A stretch of 64,000 bases of DNA from Burkholderia multivorans ATCC BAA-247 (GTDB taxonomy: Bacteria; Pseudomonadota; Gammaproteobacteria; Burkholderiales; Burkholderiaceae): the NCBI RefSeq assembly GCF_000959525.1, contig NZ_CP009831.1, positions 2,232,001 to 2,296,000 of the forward strand, given 5' to 3'. A model generated the notes under the pieces. It ran no database searches, was not told where the DNA came from, and saw only the letters and a program-made list of their open reading frames with translations. Made by a program: the position numbers and the translations under genes. Below, one piece after another: positions 42,419 through 52,056 of the stretch; positions within the stretch are counted from its first letter, which is position 1; each line of letters starts with the position of its first letter.

Positions 42419-43075
42419 TCAAGCGCGCCGGGTCACGCGTCGGACCAGGCGGTCGCCCGTGAATTGCACGGCCGAGACGAGCGCGATCAGGATCACGATC
42501 ACGGTCGCCATCACGGCGGTGTCGAAACGCTGGTAGCCGTAGCGGATCGCGAGATCGCCGAGCCCGCCCGCGCCGACGGCGCCGGCCATCGCGGTCGAAC
42601 CGATCAACGCGACGACGGTGATCGTGAAGCCGCCGAGCATGCCGGGCAGCGCTTCGGGCAACAGCACGTGCCACACGATGTGACGCCGCTTCGCGCCCAT
42701 CGCGAGCGCGGCTTCGATGAGCCCGCGATCGACTTCGCGCAGGCTCACTTCGGCGATCCGCGCGAAGAACGGAATCGCGGCGATCGACAGCGGTACGACG
42801 GCCGCCCACACGCCGATCGTCGTGCCGATCAGCACGCGCGTAAACGGCAGCAGCGCAACCAGCAGGATGATGAACGGCGTCGAGCGGAACACGTTTACGA
42901 GCGCGCCGAGTACGGCGTTGACGCCGCGCCGTTCGTAGATGCCGCCGGGCGCGGTCGTCACGAGGATCACCGCGAGCGGAATGCCGAGCAGCGCGGCGAT
43001 CGCGGCCGACGCGGCGACCATCGACAGCGTGTCGCGGATCGCGTCGAGCAGTTCGGGCCACCACAGTTCAAACAT
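42419..43075 (-). CDS. metI: Methionine-type ABC transporter permease
   Basis: This 218-aa MetI-family permease has five predicted helices. Motifs include [27 protein letters not shown] near the middle and the coupling loop [27 protein letters not shown]. With MetN and MetQ it imports methionine or, in this context, another organosulfur compound. The start is the ATG at 43075, 8 bp inside the end of metN. Confidence 0.9.
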
Positions 43076-44246
43076 AGCCGAGCACCTCCGCGTGATTCGC
43101 ATGCCGGCGCGCGCGTTCGAGCAGCGCGGCGACCGCGCCGGCGTGTGCCGTCGACGGGCCGGCGTCGTCCGCACGCGGCGTCGCGGCGATCACGAGACGC
43201 CCCTGCGCATGGCCCTGGATGCGTTCGATGCCGCCGTGCAGGAACCGCACGGAACCGCCGAGCGCCGCCGCGAGCGCGCCGACGTCGGGCTCGCCGCCGC
43301 TCTCGCCCGTATAGCGGACGTCGAGCACGATCTGCGCGCCGTCGGGCAGCGCGGCCTCGTCGTGCAGCGGCTGCACGCGCGCCGCGAGCTCGGCCGGCAG
43401 GTCGTGCACGAGCGTGCTGAGCAGCGCGCGCGTCGCGCCGTGCCGCGGATCGCCGAACACGCGCCACACGGGGCCCGTCTCCACGACTTCGCCCTGCTCG
43501 ATCACCGCGACCGTGTCGCACACCGCGCGGATCACTTCCATTTCATGCGTGATCAGCACGATCGTCAGCCCGAGGCGGCGGTTGATGTCCGCCAGCAGCG
43601 CGAGAATCGACTGCGTGGTTTCGGGATCGAGCGCCGACGTCGCTTCGTCGCACAGCAGCACCTCGGGGTCGTGCACCAGCGCGCGCGCAATGCCGACGCG
43701 CTGCTTCTGGCCGCCCGACAGGCTCGCCGGATAGGCGTCGCGCTTCGCGGCAAGCCCGACCAGTTCGAGCAGCGCTTCGGCCTTGCGCGTGCGCTCGGCC
43801 TTCGGCACGCCGGCGATCTTCAGCGGCAGCGCGACGTTCTCGAATACCGTCTTCGCGGACAGCAGGTTGAAGTGCTGAAACACCATCCCGGTCCGGCGGC
43901 GCAGCGCGACGAGGCCGTCCTCGTCGAGCGTGCCGACGTCGACGCCCTGCACGCGCACGCGCCCCGAACTCGGGCGCTCGAGCCCGTTCATCAGCCGCAG
44001 CAGCGTCGATTTGCCGGCGCCGCTGCGGCCGATGATGCCGAACACCTCGCCGCGCCGCACGTCGAGCGTCACGTCACGCAGCGCGGCGGCCTGCCCGCGC
44101 GGCGAGGCAAATACCTTGCCGACGTGCTCGAGCGAGACGGCCGCGCCGCTCGTCGCCTCAGCCGACTGCACGCGCGCCTGGGCGTGCGCGCCGGCCTGCG
44201 CGGCCGCTGCATCGATGAATCCCAGCGTATCGAACCAATGCGTCAT
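43068..44246 (-). CDS. metN: Methionine-type ABC transporter ATP-binding protein
   Basis: This 392-aa ATPase has Walker [10 protein letters not shown], signature [15 protein letters not shown], Walker [13 protein letters not shown] and a C-terminal NIL (ACT-like) domain that in MetN binds methionine for trans-inhibition. An Ala-rich N-terminal extension of about 35 residues ([23 protein letters not shown]...) precedes the usual [10 protein letters not shown] start and is unusual for MetN. A GGGAG ribosome site before the ATG at 44246 supports it as real. The gene lies between the LLM monooxygenase and metI. Confidence 0.91.
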
Positions 44247-44264: not shown

Positions 44265-45662
44265 TCATGCATGCGCGGATTCGCGCGCGGCGGCCGGCCG
44301 GTGCTGCGCGCCCGTATGCCACGCCGGCAGCCGCGCGCCCGCGCCGAACAGCTTTTCGCGCAGCGTCGGCGCGGGATCGTAGTCTTCCTTGTAGACGCCG
44401 CGGTTCTGCAGCTCGGGCACGACCCAGTCGACGAAATCCTCGAACGATTCAGGCATCACCGTGCGCGTCAGGTTGAAGCCGTCGATGCCGGTCTCGTCGA
44501 TCCACGACTGCAGCTCGTCGGCGACCTGCGACGGCGAACCGACGATCGGCGCATAGCGGCCGCCGAGCGACATCTGCTCGAGCATGCGGCGCACGGTCCA
44601 CGCGCCGCTCGTGCTCTTGCGCGAGATCGCGTCGACGGCCGACTGGATCGAGTCGGTCTTCACATACGAGATCGGCTCGTCGAGGCCGTACTTCGCGAAG
44701 TCGATGCCGGTCGAGCTCGCGAAATGCGCGAGTCCCGCTTCCGGGCTCGCATAGCGCCGGTACTCGTCGAACTTCTCGCGCGCGAGCCGTTCGGTCTCGG
44801 CCGTGACGACGCTCACGCCCGCGAAGATGCGGATCGATGCCGGATCGCGGCCCTGCCGCGCGGCCGCCGCGCGGATGTCGAGCGCCGCCGCGCGCGCCGC
44901 GGCCTTGCTCTGGCCGTTGACGAACACGCACTCCGCATGACGGCCTGCGAACTCGACGCCGCGCGCGGACGATCCGGCCTGATAGAGCACCGGCGTGCGC
45001 TGCGGCGACGGCTCGCTCAGGTGGATCGCATCGATCGAATAGAACGGCCCGTCGTGCTTCACGCGCCGCACCTTGTCGGGCCGCGCGAACACGCGTGCGC
45101 GCGCGTCGCGGATCACCGCGTCGTCGTCCCAGCTCTGCTCCCACAACTTGTAGACGACGTCCATATAGTCGTCCGCGCGCTCGTAGCGGTCGTCGTGGCC
45201 GATCTGTCGCGCCAGCCCCATCCCGCGCGCGGCGCTGTCGAGATAACCGGTCACGATGTTCCAGCCGATGCGGCCTTTGGTCAGATGATCGAGCGTCGAC
45301 ATCCGGCGCGCGAACAGATACGGCGGCTCGTACGTGAGATTCGAGGTCACGCCGAAGCCGAGATGCCGCGTGACCTGCGCCATCGCCGGCACGAGCAGCA
45401 GCGGATCGTTGACCGGCACCTGCACCGATTCGCGCAGCGCGACCTCGGGGCCGCCGCCGAACACGTCGTACACGCCGACGATGTCCGCGAGAAAGATGCC
45501 GTCGAACTTGCCGCGCTCGAGCGTCTTCGCGAGATCGGTCCAGTAGTCCAGATCGGTGTAATGCGCGGAGCGGTCGCGCGGATGCGTCCACAGCCCGTGA
45601 TTGATGTGCCCGACGCAGTTCATGTTGAACGCGTTGAGCAGGATCTTCTTGCGATTCGCCAT
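44265..45662 (-). CDS. LLM-class flavin monooxygenase, NtaA/SnaA/DszA family
   Basis: This 465-aa bacterial-luciferase-like TIM barrel uses FMNH2. Family motifs are MANRKKILLNAFNMNC at the start, FLADIVGVYDVFGGGPE, YLFARRMSTLDHLTKGRIGWNIVTGYLD, LYQAGSSARGVEFAGRHAECVFV and DGFNLTRTVMPES. Relatives oxidise dibenzothiophene sulfone, nitrilotriacetate or thioethers such as modified cysteines. Given the MetQNI importer it probably releases sulfur from an imported organosulfur compound. No dedicated flavin reductase is seen. The start at 45662 has GGAGG 6 bp upstream, better than an upstream in-frame codon. Confidence 0.88.
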   Translation of the reverse strand: MANRKKILLNAFNMNCVGHINHGLWTHPRDRSAHYTDLDYWTDLAKTLERGKFDGIFLADIVGVYDVFGGGPEVALRESVQVPVNDPLLLVPAMAQVTRHLGFGVTSNLTYEPPYLFARRMSTLDHLTKGRIGWNIVTGYLDSAARGMGLARQIGHDDRYERADDYMDVVYKLWEQSWDDDAVIRDARARVFARPDKVRRVKHDGPFYSIDAIHLSEPSPQRTPVLYQAGSSARGVEFAGRHAECVFVNGQSKAAARAAALDIRAAAARQGRDPASIRIFAGVSVVTAETERLAREKFDEYRRYASPEAGLAHFASSTGIDFAKYGLDEPISYVKTDSIQSAVDAISRKSTSGAWTVRRMLEQMSLGGRYAPIVGSPSQVADELQSWIDETGIDGFNLTRTVMPESFEDFVDWVVPELQNRGVYKEDYDPAPTLREKLFGAGARLPAWHTGAQHRPAAARESAHA

Positions 45663-45673
45663 ATGCGCCTCCG

Positions 45674-46525
45674 TCACCATGCGACCGCGTACAGCGAGCC
45701 GAACGCGTTATCGAGCGCCTTGCGCACCGCCGGCGAATGCTGGTAGATCGCGATGAACTTGCGGATGCGCGGATCGTTGACGCTGTCGGGGCGCACGACC
45801 CACTGAATCGCGAAGTTCTTGTTCTCGGTGCCGTCGAACAGCAGCGCGCTGTTCGGGTCCGTCGTGCCGGCAAGCTTGATGAAGCTCGGATAGCCCTGCG
45901 CGAGATCGACGTCGTCGAGCGAACGCGCGAGCTGCGACGCCTCGAGCTGCACGATCTTCAGATGCTTCGGGTTCGCGACGATGTCGCGCGTGGTCGCGCG
46001 ATAGTCGACGCCCGGTTTCAGCGTGATGAGCCCCGCGCGCTGCAGCAGCAGCAAGCCGCGGCCGCCGTTGACCGGATCGTTCGCGATCGCGACCTTCGCG
46101 CCGTCCTTGAGCTCGCCGAAGCTTTTCACCTTCTTCGAATAGAGGCCGATCTTCATGATCGTGCCGGGCGCGATCGCGACGAAGTCGTAGCCGCCCTGCT
46201 TCTTCGCGTTCTCGAGAAACGGGATGTGCTGGAAGTAGTTGACGTCGATGTCCTTGTTCGCGAGTGCCGCGTTCGGCGTATTCCAGTCGGTGAATTCGAT
46301 GATCTTCACGTCGAGACCCTGCGCCTTCGCCTCCTTCGCGGCGACCTTCAGCGCATCGATCTGCGGACTCGTCGCGATGCCGACCTTCAGCGGCGCGGAA
46401 TCGGCGTGCGCGCCGTTCGGCAGCGCGATGCCGAGCGACGCGGCGAACAGCGCAGTCGCGAACAGCCGGGCGGTGCGCGCGACCCGCGCAGCGACGAAGC
46501 GGACGGACAAAACGGCATGCGGCAT
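45674..46525 (-). CDS. metQ: Methionine-type ABC transporter binding protein (MetQ/NlpA family)
   Basis: This 283-aa NlpA/MetQ-family binding protein has the mature region beginning APLKVGIATSPQIDALKVAAKEAK. Family motifs are IIEFTDWNTPNAALANKDIDVNYFQHIPFLE and AIANDPVNGGRGLLLLQRAGLI. The signal peptide ends NGAHADS without a lipobox Cys, so the protein is soluble in the periplasm, unlike lipoprotein MetQ. It is the first gene of the six-gene sulfur operon. Start 46525 has AGGAG 11 bp upstream; the frame also extends seven codons further. Confidence 0.9.
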   Translation of the reverse strand: MPHAVLSVRFVAARVARTARLFATALFAASLGIALPNGAHADSAPLKVGIATSPQIDALKVAAKEAKAQGLDVKIIEFTDWNTPNAALANKDIDVNYFQHIPFLENAKKQGGYDFVAIAPGTIMKIGLYSKKVKSFGELKDGAKVAIANDPVNGGRGLLLLQRAGLITLKPGVDYRATTRDIVANPKHLKIVQLEASQLARSLDDVDLAQGYPSFIKLAGTTDPNSALLFDGTENKNFAIQWVVRPDSVNDPRIRKFIAIYQHSPAVRKALDNAFGSLYAVAW

Positions 46526-46735
46526 GGGAACCACTCTCCTGTGCAACGAGGAATCGACGAATGCGCGACGCCGCGGCGAACGCGCAGGCGTTCTCCGGAC
46601 AGTCGCGGTATCGGAAAAGGATCAGCCGATGATAGAGAGCGGCACGGGGGCGGTCTACGAAGCGATTGTGCGAAGAAAATCGCATCCGGCGATATGGCGC
46701 GCGAACCGGCGTGCGGCGCGGGCGGCGGCGCACCT

Positions 46736-46782
46736 GGCCGAAATCTCGGCCTGCCGCCGGCGCGTTTTCCGAAATCTCGGAA
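46736..46782 (+). promoter_or_regulatory. Twin 16-bp palindromes, putative enhancer (UAS) for the DctD-like regulator
   Basis: Two perfect palindromes share the core CCGAAATCTCGG: GGCCGAAATCTCGGCC at 46736-46751 and TTCCGAAATCTCGGAA at 46767-46782. Their centres are 31 bp apart, about three helical turns. They lie roughly 110-150 bp upstream of the start expected from the sigma-54 promoter, the usual place for NtrC-class activators. Confidence 0.7.
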
Positions 46783-46864
46783 CGGCCCGTCGAGGCGGCT
46801 TTCTTCAGACGACACTAACGTCTTTTAAATCAATGCGTTATGTGCGCATCGCGAGACGCAATCC

Positions 46865-46880
46865 TGGCACGGCCGTTGCG
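46865..46880 (+). promoter_or_regulatory. Sigma-54 (RpoN) -24/-12 promoter
   Basis: TGGCACGGCCGTTGCG matches the consensus TGGCAC-N5-TTGC exactly, with the invariant GG and GC 12 bp apart. Transcription would begin near 46890, about 50 nt before the transporter start codon. A sigma-54 activator (DctD-like, GAFTGA motif) is encoded 3.4 kb downstream. Confidence 0.85.
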
Positions 46881-46940
46881 TAATAGAGCGCACACGATGC
46901 CGCGCACCGGCGTCGGCATGCCAACATCAGGAGACACGTC

Positions 46941-48305
46941 TTGCAGACCTCAATCCCTACCCCGTCCCATCCGGAATCGGTCGTCGACGCCGGTTCGGCC
47001 GCGCGCACGCGCTTCTGGCCCGAAGGCTGGTGGAAGCTGATGGAAATCCGCATCGGCATCATTCCGCTGCCGGTCTACCTCATCCTGTTCGCGCTGATCG
47101 TCGGCTTCGCGGTGACGGGCAAGGTGCCCGGCGAAATCTCGATGGCGATCGCGGTGCTCGCGTTCTTCGGCTTCACCTGCGCGGAACTCGGCAAGCGTCT
47201 GCCGCTGCTGCGCAATATCGGCGCGGCCGCGATCTTCGCGACCTTCGTGCCGTCCGCGCTCACCTACTATCACGTGCTGCCGAAGCCGGTACTGAACCTG
47301 ACCGTCGAATTCACGAAGTCGACGAACTTCCTGTACCTGTTCATCGCATCGATCATCGTCGGCAGCATCCTGAGCATGGATCGCCGCGTGCTGATCCAGG
47401 GCTTCCTGAAGATCTTCGTGCCGCTCGCGCTCGGCTCGGTCGCCGCGGCGATCGTCGGCACGGCCGTCGGCACCGCGCTCGGCCTCGGCGCGCGCCACAC
47501 GCTGCTGTACATCGTCGTGCCGATCATGGCGGGCGGCGTCGGCGAAGGCGCGATCCCGCTGTCGATCGGCTATTCGGAAATCCTGCATCTGCCGCAAGGC
47601 GAGATGTTCGCGATGGTGCTGCCGTCGGTGATGCTCGGCAGCCTCACCGCGATCATTCTGTCGGGCGCGCTCGACATGCTCGGCAAGCGCCTGCCGCATC
47701 TGACCGGCAACGGCCGCCTGCAGGTCGGCGAAACCGGCGACATGTCGCCGGAACACGAGGAAAAGCGCGGCCTCGTCGACGTGACGCATATCGCGGGCGC
47801 CGGCATCACCGCGATCACGCTGTACCTCGTCGGGCTGATGGCGCACAAGCTGTTCGGCCTACCGGCGCCGGTCGCGATGCTGTTCCTCGCGGTGCTCGTG
47901 AAGCTCGCGCGCGCCGTGTCGCCGCCGCTCCAGGAAGGCGCGTTCGTCGTCTACAAGTTCTTCTCGACTGCCGTCACGTATCCGCTGCTGTTCGCGATCG
48001 GCGTCGCGATGACGCCGTGGGACAAGCTGACCGCCGCGTTCACGCTCGTCAACGTCGTGACGATCGTCGCGACCGTCGCGACGCTGATGGGCACCGGTTT
48101 CGTGGTCGGCCGCCTGTTGAAGATGTACCCTATCGACACCGCAATCGTGAACGCCTGCCACAGCGGGCAAGGCGGCACCGGCGACGTCGCGATCCTGACC
48201 GCCGCGAACCGGATGCAGCTGATGCCGTTCGCGCAGATCGCCACCCGCATCGGCGGCGCGATCGTCGTCACGGTCACGCTGATCCTGCTCGCGCACTTCG
48301 GATGA
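46941..48305 (+). CDS. 2-hydroxycarboxylate transporter (CitS/CimH type)
   Basis: This 454-aa secondary transporter of the 2HCT family imports citrate, malate or lactate-like acids with Na+ or H+. Both re-entrant loop motifs are present: GGVGEGAIPLSIGYSE in the first half and CHSGQGGTGDVAILTAANRMQLMPFAQIATRIGG at the C-terminus. Eleven helices fit the family. The start is read as TTG 46941 because AGGAG stands 8 bp before it; the next ATG (47040) would remove 33 residues. It is under a sigma-54 promoter and followed by a DctB/DctD pair. Confidence 0.9.
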   Translation: MQTSIPTPSHPESVVDAGSAARTRFWPEGWWKLMEIRIGIIPLPVYLILFALIVGFAVTGKVPGEISMAIAVLAFFGFTCAELGKRLPLLRNIGAAAIFATFVPSALTYYHVLPKPVLNLTVEFTKSTNFLYLFIASIIVGSILSMDRRVLIQGFLKIFVPLALGSVAAAIVGTAVGTALGLGARHTLLYIVVPIMAGGVGEGAIPLSIGYSEILHLPQGEMFAMVLPSVMLGSLTAIILSGALDMLGKRLPHLTGNGRLQVGETGDMSPEHEEKRGLVDVTHIAGAGITAITLYLVGLMAHKLFGLPAPVAMLFLAVLVKLARAVSPPLQEGAFVVYKFFSTAVTYPLLFAIGVAMTPWDKLTAAFTLVNVVTIVATVATLMGTGFVVGRLLKMYPIDTAIVNACHSGQGGTGDVAILTAANRMQLMPFAQIATRIGGAIVVTVTLILLAHFG

Positions 48306-48387
48306 CGCACGGCCGCGCGCATCGTCGCGCACGCCGCGTCGCACGCGCCGCCGCCGGGCCGACCGGCGCGCGGCGCGTGTCGTTGAG

Positions 48388-48442
48388 GACGGCCAGTTGG
48401 ACGGCCAGTTGGACGGCCAGTTGGACGGCCGGTTGGACGGCC
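48388..48442 (+). repeat. 12-bp tandem repeat (minisatellite)
   Basis: GACGGCCAGTTG is repeated head to tail at 48388, 48400 and 48412, then as the variant GACGGCCGGTTG at 48424 and a partial unit at 48436. The unit is a multiple of three, so copy change would not shift a frame. It ends 26 bp before the likely kinase start, where it could affect expression. Confidence 0.9.
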
Positions 48443-48468: not shown

Positions 48469-50341
48469 ATGAGGGCGAACGTGCAGAAGAGCTTCAAGGG
48501 AATCCCGTGGTGGGGCTGGGCGTCGGCGGCCGTGCTGTATGTCGGCGTCGCGGGCGCGGTCGTCGATTTCGCGTGGGAACGCGCGATCGACGCGCTCGAG
48601 GAAGCCGGCGCGCATCGGCTCGACCTCTACGCATCGAGCCTGAAGAGCGAACTCGGCCGCTTCGAGATCCTGCCCGCACTGGTCGCGCGGCAGGACAGCG
48701 TGCGTGCGTTGCTGAAGGCGTCGCCGCAACAGGCGCGCGACCTGCTGCATCCGGTCGACGTCTATCTCGAAGCCGTGAACCGCGACGCAGGCAGCGGCGC
48801 GGTCGACGTAATCGATCTGCGCGGCGACGTGATCGCCGCGAGCAACTGGAACGAGCCGGTCAGCTTCGTCGGCACGAACGTGTCGTACCGGCCGTATTTC
48901 AAGGATGCGCTCGCGCGCGGCAGCGGCCGCTTCTTCGGGATCGGCACGAACACCGGCGTGCCGGGCGTCTATTTCGCGAGCGCGGTGCGCGACGGCGGTA
49001 CGCCGATCGGCGTCGCGGCCGCGAAAATCAGCGTCGATCCGCTCGAATCCGCGTGGCGCGCGCCCGGTGTCGCGGCGATGGTCGTCGACGGCAACGGCGT
49101 CGTCGTGATCTCGACCGAACCCGCATGGAAATTCACGGCACTGCGCCCGATCACCGCGCAGCAGCAGCGCGATATCCAGGCGTCGCGCCAGTATGCGGGC
49201 CGCACCGTCGACGCGCTGCCGTACCGCCGCATCGGCGAGCACAGCGCGGCGGCGTGGTTCGGCACGCTTCCCGATCCGCATCGCGCGGGGCGCACCGTGC
49301 GCTACCTCGTGATGTCGCGTCCCGCGCCGCAGGCCGGCGATTCGCTGATGGTGCTGCTCGACACCGCCGGCGCGCGCCGCCAGCAGCAGACGGCCTTCGT
49401 GTTCGTGACAGGTGCGTTCCTGATCGTCGCACTGCTGGTCGGTTATGCAATCCAGCGGCGCCGGGCGATCGCCGCGCGGCTGAACGCGCAGGACGCGCTG
49501 CGCCGCGCGAACGATCGGCTCGAGCTAACCGTCGCGCAGCGCACCGCGGCGCTCACCGAGGCGAACGAGCGGATGCAGCGCGAGATCGTCGAGCGCGAGC
49601 GCACCGAGCAGCGGCTACGCGATTCGCAGCAGGAAGTCGTGCACGCCGGCAAGCTCGCCGTGCTCGGGCAGATGGCGGCCGGCCTCACGCACGAGCTGAA
49701 CCAGCCGCTCGTCGCGATCCGCACGCTGTGCGACAACGCGCGCACGTTCTTCGAGCGCAATCAGCCGGCGCAAGCGTTCGCGAATCTCGAGCGGATCGGC
49801 AAGCTCGTCGACGGGATGGCCGTGCTCACCGGCGAACTGAAGACGTTCGCGCGCAAGCCCGACGTCGAGCGCGTCGCGGTGTCGCTGAACGAAGCCGTCG
49901 CGCATGCGCGGCTGATCTACGATGCGCGGCTGCGCGACGAAGGCGTTCAGCTCGACGTGAACATTCCGGCCGGCACGACGGTATCAGCCGAATCGAGCCA
50001 GCTGCAGCAGGTGATCGTGAACCTGCTCGGCAACGCGCTCGATGCCGTTCACGATGCGCCGGTGCGCCGCATCGCCATTGCCGCCGACGCCCCGGACGCG
50101 CACGGGCGCGTACGCTTCAGCGTGACGGATTCCGGCGCCGGCATCGCACCCGACGTGCTGCCGCACCTGTTCGAGCCGTTCGTCACGACGAAGCCGCGCG
50201 GCCAGGGCCTCGGACTCGGGCTAGCGATCACGTCGCGGATCGTCGAAGGATTCGGCGCGAAGATCGCCGCGACGAATCGTGACGGCGGCGGTGCGCAGTT
50301 CACCATCGAATTCGCGGCGGCCACGCCGCAAAGGACAGAAC

Positions 50342-50352
<11 letters not shown>
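48469..50352 (+). CDS. DctB-like sensor histidine kinase
   Basis: This 627-aa membrane kinase has a helix at about 12-30, a periplasmic double-Cache/PDC domain (about 30-300, with NVSYRPYFKDAL and GVYFASAVRD), and a second helix (about 306-326). A coiled coil follows (NDRLELTVAQRTAALTEANERMQREI), then HisKA with phospho-His in LTHELNQP and an ATPase domain (N-box NLLGNALDA, DSGAGIAPD, GQGLGLGLAI). DctB kinases sense C4-dicarboxylates or related acids. The start is taken at ATG 48469; GTG 48481 after GAGGG is equally plausible. It overlaps the regulator gene by 11 bp. Confidence 0.9.
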
Positions 50353-51703
<1,351 letters not shown>

Positions 51704-51726: not shown

Positions 51727-52056
51727 ATGGATCGCATCGACATCACCGAGCACGGCCGCATCGACGGCTACCTGATCCGCGGCATCACGCACGCGCGGAA
51801 AACCTTCCGACCGAGCGACTGGCCCGAGCGCCTCGCGGGCGTCATCACGCTGTTCGTCGGCGAACGGCGGCCCGGTTATCCGGGTGCGCTGTCGCGGCTC
51901 GCGATGCCGGTCGTCGACGGCGGCGTCAAATGCCTGTTCGTGTCGGGCGAATTGCGCGCCGTGTGCGTGGATGCGTTCGACTTCGCGATGCAGTTCGCGG
52001 CGGATAACGATCTGCCTGTCGAGGTGAAGACGGCGCCGGTGTTGGCGGTGCGGTGA
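51727..52056 (+). CDS. DUF3579-like protein
   Basis: This 109-aa protein resembles the DUF3579 family found in betaproteobacteria: GYLIRGITHARKTFRPSDWPERLAGVITLF, then VKCLFVSGELRAVCVDAFDFAMQFAADNDLPVE. Function is unknown. An in-frame ATG at 51700 overlaps the dctD-like stop (ATGA) and would add MTRTRTRTG. That start would give translational coupling and is a real alternative. Confidence 0.8.
   Translation: MDRIDITEHGRIDGYLIRGITHARKTFRPSDWPERLAGVITLFVGERRPGYPGALSRLAMPVVDGGVKCLFVSGELRAVCVDAFDFAMQFAADNDLPVEVKTAPVLAVR

Follow-up and report, generated by a model that had tools for sequence, protein, structure and literature searches.

The window, by which we mean the whole 64-kb stretch of DNA analysed (C2:2232001–2296000 of a 6.32-Mb genome in three contigs), contains a plus-strand gene for a 2HCT-family carrier (46941–48305; TTG start, 454 amino acids) that is preceded by a set of control elements. 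A ribosome-binding site, AGGAGA, was read from the sequence at 46929–46934 on the plus strand, in columns that are conserved among orthologues. A sigma-54 −24/−12 promoter, TGGCACGGCCGTTGC, lies on the same strand at 46865–46879 and agrees exactly with the consensus TGGCACG-N4-TTGC (TGGCACGNNNNTTGC), in the form printed in PMC4482717. The initial annotation had run this box on to 46880; the box is real, and its true end is 46879. Nowhere else in the 64-kb window is there an exact match; a search with one mismatch allowed, however, returned two matches in the window where 1.92 were expected, which makes the box on its own weak evidence.

Further upstream are two near-palindromic dyads, GGCCGAAATCTCGGCC (46736–46751) and TTCCGAAATCTCGGAA (46767–46782), each a candidate enhancer site with a recognition unit of the form CYGA-N4-TCRG. 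The 12-mer CCGAAATCTCGG is identical in both (46738–46749 and 46769–46780), giving the shared core at 31-bp spacing that had been reported for them. Their description as perfect 16-bp palindromes did not survive a reading of the bases: each dyad pairs at seven of eight positions, with the same A/C mismatch at positions 7/10 in both, and comparison of the 16-mers with their reverse strands gives two mismatches. Between the dyads and the −24/−12 box, at 46828–46840 (plus strand), is AATCAATGCGTTA, a probable integration host factor (IHF) site by its likeness to WATCAANNNNTTR, which we take to be the IHF consensus. The control region is genuine and, with the probable IHF site included, contains more than was first described. 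No Rfam match for a structured RNA was found between 45600 and 48600 at E values up to 1.

The carrier matches Pfam 2HCT (PF03390) with 483.5 bits against a cut-off of 26.2 (E = 5.7e-145), is the sole PF03390 match in the genome and bears the family signature (GGVG, GGTG and R436), which bears out the earlier placing of a 2HCT transporter downstream of the box. It is 98.9% identical to a carrier in a Burkholderia multivorans record. A DctB/DctD pair had been said to follow it directly; the pair is indeed next, after a gap of 163 bp. This gap holds a 12-bp tandem repeat, GGACGGCCAGTT, in 4.7 copies (48387–48442). The DctB-like sensor histidine kinase gene (48469–50352, plus strand) encodes Pfam dCache_1, HATPase_c and HisKA domains, HisKA scoring 24.9 bits, slightly below the Pfam cut-off of 26.9; its histidine kinase core and double PAS/Cache sensor are those of a DctB-type protein, and the sensor half matched three PDB entries: 2zbb and 3e4o, both with the name DctB, and 3by9, listed as Sensor protein. 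Overlapping its end (50342 versus 50352) is the gene for a DctD-like response regulator (50342–51703, plus strand) with the NtrC/DctD enhancer-binding architecture of a REC domain, a sigma-54 AAA+ domain and a Fis-type helix-turn-helix; the GAFTGA sigma-54 contact motif noted earlier is encoded at 51002–51019. The REC domain matches DctD (1qkk), the best PDB matches overall are other NtrC-family regulators, and among the 25 listed of 105 NCBIfam families none reached its cut-off. A gene for a DUF3579 protein (51727–52056, plus strand; PF12112, 74.3 bits) is perhaps the last of the operon; at E 1e-30, which is stringent for a protein of 109 amino acids, a relative was found in 37 of the 80 loci compared below and also in the diverged operon of one Burkholderia genome (G016).

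On the minus strand, the divergent genes encode MetQ (45677–46546) and an FMN monooxygenase (44265–45680), followed by putative ABC-transporter genes (42419–44246). The stretch 46614–46698 is conserved, with gaps, and contains a sigma-70-like promoter match (46657–46629, minus strand) and a GCGATT...AATCGC inverted repeat; it is probably the control region of the metQ-side operon itself.

Searching relatives for the palindromes, the check proposed in the initial annotation, showed both sites to be conserved. Of 65 genomes of the genus searched for 2HCT proteins at E up to 1e-20, 55 had a match and 10 had none; the 55 comprise 52 with orthologues of at least 93% identity (the window included), one with an 88% orthologue (G016) and two with only a 53–54% paralogue. 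Among the 52 orthologues, site 1 (pattern GGCYGARATCYCGGCC) was present upstream of all 52 and site 2, by a relaxed pattern, of 51, the orthologue missed by the pattern (L019) reading TCCCGG; 33 of the 52 retained the exact 12-mer at both sites, 31 bp apart. The box TGGCAY-N5-TTGC was found in 52 of 52, and the strict TGGCACG-N4-TTGC in 44. In the 51 orthologues measured, the dyads were 31 bp apart, start to start, in 47 and 32 bp apart in 4, and site 2 began 98–101 bp before the start of the −24 box throughout. Mean column conservation was 0.987 for site 1, 0.93 for site 2 and 0.945 for the box, compared with 0.827 between the sites and 0.784 from site 2 to the box. An IHF block stands out within this last interval, AATCAA being present in 52 of 52 orthologues and the full WATCAANNNNTTR in 38. 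The 88% orthologue has GGCTGAAATTTCAGCC, which is fully symmetric, together with TTCCGAATTTTCGG, a complete IHF match and a −24/−12 box one base off, and behind this module come kinase (77% identical), regulator (89%) and DUF3579 (68%) genes. In the genus paralogues (L068–L078), no kinase or regulator relative was found in the stretches fetched, and neither core nor box within 400 bp upstream.

Beyond the closest relatives the sites diverge. Related genera carry GGCTGAGATTTCAGCC, TTCTGAACTCTCAGAA, TTCTGAAATTTCAGAA and similar dyads, in which the middle four bases are variable and the half-site CYGA is kept; beyond the genus the recognition unit resolves to CYGA-N4-TCRG. The dyads diverge yet often stay symmetric, as in GGCTGAAATTTCAGCC and TTCTGAAATTTCAGAA. 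Our search patterns required GA and TC and also imposed the pyrimidine or purine beside them (C or T at positions 3 and 4); under these constraints, position 3 was C in all 63 first sites and all 68 second sites. For pair 4/13, the 63 first sites had C-G in 47 and T-A in 4, and because half-matched T-G (7) and C-A (5) also occurred, this is modest evidence for compensatory change. The outer arm of site 2 is often asymmetric, with TTCCGAAATCTCGGCC in 29 of 68 sites. At the 48 two-site loci of the 80-locus comparison below, the spacing was 31 bp at 42 and 32 bp at 6. Of the 66 modules in that comparison, 38 have a strict IHF match in the interval from dyad to −24 box, compared with 0.07% of shuffles, and 57 have ATCAA there.

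Within the genome TTCCGANNNNTCGGAA occurs exactly once, and the exact 12-mer CCGAAATCTCGG four times, two of these at this promoter and the other two (L001 and L002) inside predicted coding frames. On these exact matches a wide regulon for this dyad is not supported, but with up to one mismatch 48 genome matches to the 12-mer were listed (44 of them with one mismatch), against 8 for a reversed-pattern control.

The presence of the sites also tracks that of the two regulatory genes. We compared the best 80 of 308 loci encoding a 2HCT relative, counting as a module a dyad followed at 60–150 bp by a −24/−12-like box (up to two mismatches), within 1.8 kb upstream, and scoring the gene pair as present when adjacent genes had more than 60% (kinase) and more than 70% (regulator) identity. 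The module was found at 66 of the 68 loci with both genes and at none of the 12 without both; dyad and box at this distance arose in 5 of 4,000 single-base-shuffled upstream regions. For orthologues of at least 80% identity the counts were 66/68 with the pair and 0/7 without (Fisher 1.8e-8, uncorrected for relatedness), a P value that overstates the support and is only indicative because the loci are related and presence and absence follow phylogeny. The pair occurred without a recognisable module at L174 and L192. Two of the seven, L187, where only the kinase passed the threshold, and L193, where only the regulator did, lack the module like the rest. So do the remaining five of the 12 loci without the pair, which fall below 80% identity (L199, L200 and L203–L205; 71–75%), the upstream DNA covered at L199 and L200 being only 555 and 186 bp. 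At L175, which has the pair, the module sits some 1.4 kb upstream.

A second set of 40 loci came from 38 non-genus genomes, out of 68 that gave a strong match; it partly overlaps the 80-locus set and is not summed with it. Here the module accompanied 21 of 23 gene pairs (L092 and L103 being the misses) and 0 of 17 loci without the pair, with L102 counted through its twin L189 and L104, without the pair, cut by a contig end. At the more distant 2HCT genes L106–L118 (56–73% identity) no module was found in the 0.2–1.8 kb of upstream DNA covered; isolated single dyad-like or box-like matches were seen at L107, L110, L112, L115 and L116. Burkholderia sp. OK233 has three carrier copies (L180, L183 and L193; 83–84% identity), two with module and gene pair and one without the module and without a kinase above 60% identity.

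Parts, order, spacing and conservation, and the co-occurrence of sites with the kinase and regulator genes, are direct observations. The likeliest mechanism to join them is the textbook enhancer mechanism serving one local carrier. The DctB-like kinase would sense an external hydroxy- or dicarboxylate through its dCache domain and phosphorylate the DctD-like regulator, dimers of which would bind the two phased dyads, 31 bp or about three helical turns apart and preceding the predicted start by about 117 and 148 bp. IHF would bend the DNA between dyads and promoter, and the AAA+ ring would touch sigma-54 via GAFTGA, opening the carrier promoter for an RpoN-dependent start of transcription; the inducer and the cargo, presumably citrate and/or L-malate, are taken up below. 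The architecture fits the scheme of sigma-54, bacterial enhancer-binding protein and IHF set out in a review (PMC7057263), according to which looping with the help of IHF is frequent at promoters of the sigma-54 type.

We put the probability that this is a local, self-regulated sigma-54 uptake module, with the neighbouring pair switching on the 2HCT carrier, at roughly 0.87. The self-contained sense-and-import circuit of the initial annotation is well supported, by conservation and by the co-occurrence of sites and gene pair (66/68 versus 0/12). The dyads might instead bind another regulator, for example one serving the divergent metQ and monooxygenase genes, with the sigma-54 box close by incidentally: they do lie in a divergent intergenic region whose metQ side (about 46614–46698) is itself conserved. 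We consider this improbable, as the sites track the kinase/regulator pair, the 11.4 kb of L067 include the module and show no relative of MetQ, and site 2 keeps a start-to-start spacing of 98–101 bp from the −24 box in 51 orthologues. That the pattern reflects chance or a terminator-like hairpin has a negligible probability and is contradicted by the conservation (site 1 in 52/52) and by the shuffled regions (5/4000), even though short palindromes with imperfections abound where DNA is GC-rich and the 12-mer has 48 genome matches with up to one mismatch; there is no T-run beside the dyads, and a terminator scan found none there.

The same genome carries a separate dctA-dctB-dctD operon on C3, with a kinase 38% and a regulator 52–54% identical to those of the 2HCT locus. 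The locus in the window is not a dctABD system proper, as the target is not dctA (SDF family) but a 2HCT gene. Upstream of the genome's own dctA is a −24/−12-like box, TGGCATCGACCTTGC, with two mismatches. We rejected an operator common to the two systems, as a search of the 0.9 kb that precede the dctA match gave no CYGA-N4-TCRG dyad. In the 2HCT-locus regulator the recognition helix is MPKKTLYHKLRHL, against VGKATLYEKMKRY in the genome's DctD, and most of the former is invariant among 69 orthologues of the 2HCT-locus regulator. Another NtrC-type regulator, at G000:C3:1302579-1303955, appeared in the search output with one in-frame TGA.

The carrier had been labelled a citrate-type symporter, a label that the sequence does not sustain: it scores 226.1 bits against the CitS equivalog NF047943 (cut-off 600) and 466.8 bits against the ccs subfamily TIGR00783 (cut-off 549.05). 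In CitS, N186, R402 and Y348 hold the 3-carboxylate of citrate or stack on it (PMC5451387 and PMC4718727); the carrier has V200, Q410 and M357 in their place, and keeps the 2-hydroxyacid contact (S405, here T413) and R428 (R436). LmCitP, with V, L, M and T, carries malate and citrate, and LlMleP, with M, L, M and T, malate only (PMC5451387). Q410, T413, R436 and Q432 are identical at all 80 loci, V200 at 75 and M357 at 78. An Azospirillum relative (63.6% identical) adjoins citCDEFXG, and in Enterococcus a relative (40.6%) is flanked by malic enzyme and citCDE; both have V, Q, T and R at CitS positions 186, 402, 405 and 428, with V and K at the Y348 position. In Azospirillum thermophilum (L208), the 2HCT gene stands behind citCDEFXG with one alpha/beta hydrolase gene between. 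Because these relatives with nearly the same pocket adjoin citrate-lyase genes despite the lost CitS contacts, a malate-only carrier read from pocket residues was dropped; cargo and inducer may be citrate, malate or both.

Two versions of the module's function were weighed against this evidence. That the module is as described and its carrier a plain, citrate-induced citrate importer would suit the company that the Azospirillum and Enterococcus relatives, with V, Q, T and R, keep beside citrate-lyase genes, and the presence of a dctA-dctB-dctD operon already available for C4 acids. We find it somewhat unlikely, given V, M and Q at the positions of CitS N186, Y348 and R402, a sensor domain like that of DctB, itself a C4-dicarboxylate sensor, and a genome with no match to citrate lyase CitF and with two CitMHS-type matches, one of which (G000:C3:1556053-1557351) has an in-frame TGA. 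A carrier mainly for L-malate (a 2-hydroxy C4 acid), malate-induced and forming a second route beside DctA, would agree with the DctB-like sensor and with loss of the contacts to the third carboxylate of citrate, as modelled for LmCitP and LlMleP (PMC5451387). This too is somewhat unlikely: LmCitP shares the V at that position and transports both acids (PMC5451387), and relatives with nearly the same pocket adjoin citrate-lyase genes. A distant second 2HCT carrier (40–43% identical), at L073 and L075–L078, lies beside genes that their translations mark as putative two-subunit isopropylmalate dehydratases, hinting at possible uptake of another 2-hydroxyacid.

A broader reading, which we hold as a tentative possibility, is that, in Burkholderia sensu lato, a branch of the DctBD family shifted its target to 2-hydroxy tri- and dicarboxylates: its dCache sensor would read citrate, or citrate and malate, and its re-specified Fis-type helix would use the CYGA-N4-TCRG operator to control a sigma-54-dependent 2HCT importer that is gained and lost as a unit. 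The analysis provides a precise, testable operator. The genome's DctD and the 2HCT-locus regulator, 54% identical and in one cell, form a natural pair for asking how related enhancer-binding proteins separate their targets, and the locus points to another route of organic-acid uptake, beside the first, in Burkholderia and its plant-associated kin.

The components are known, and the pairing of a DctBD-type pair with a 2HCT carrier is the less familiar part. No title among the open-access literature matches listed describes a DctBD-like pair driving a 2HCT carrier; as these cover open-access literature only, the pairing may well be in print elsewhere. CitS of Klebsiella and Salmonella, which is regulated by CitAB, shares with our carrier the 2HCT family and the conserved arginine R428, and differs at N186, Y348 and R402 and in the equivalog cut-off that our carrier misses. 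MaeP is likewise a 2HCT protein. The rhizobial DctB/DctD-dctA system has the same DctB-like sensor kinase, DctD-like activator, sigma-54 promoter and carboxylate importer, and its DctD sites may, as the initial annotation proposed, have a core comparable to that of the dyads, but its carrier is DctA rather than a 2HCT protein. MaeN of Bacillus is named in the legend of the CitS alignment in PMC4718727. In Lactobacillales, MaeKR-maeP likewise places a putative malate importer under two-component control, but by a citrate-family (DcuSR-like) system, and the parts of PMC5457438 available to us describe no sigma-54 module. The nearest precedent found is MifS/MifR-PA5530 of Pseudomonas aeruginosa, where DctBD homologues and RpoN are required for a dedicated carboxylate carrier outside the C4 system; there the substrate is alpha-ketoglutarate (C5), and PMC4482717 treats the mifS and PA5530 promoters as separate.
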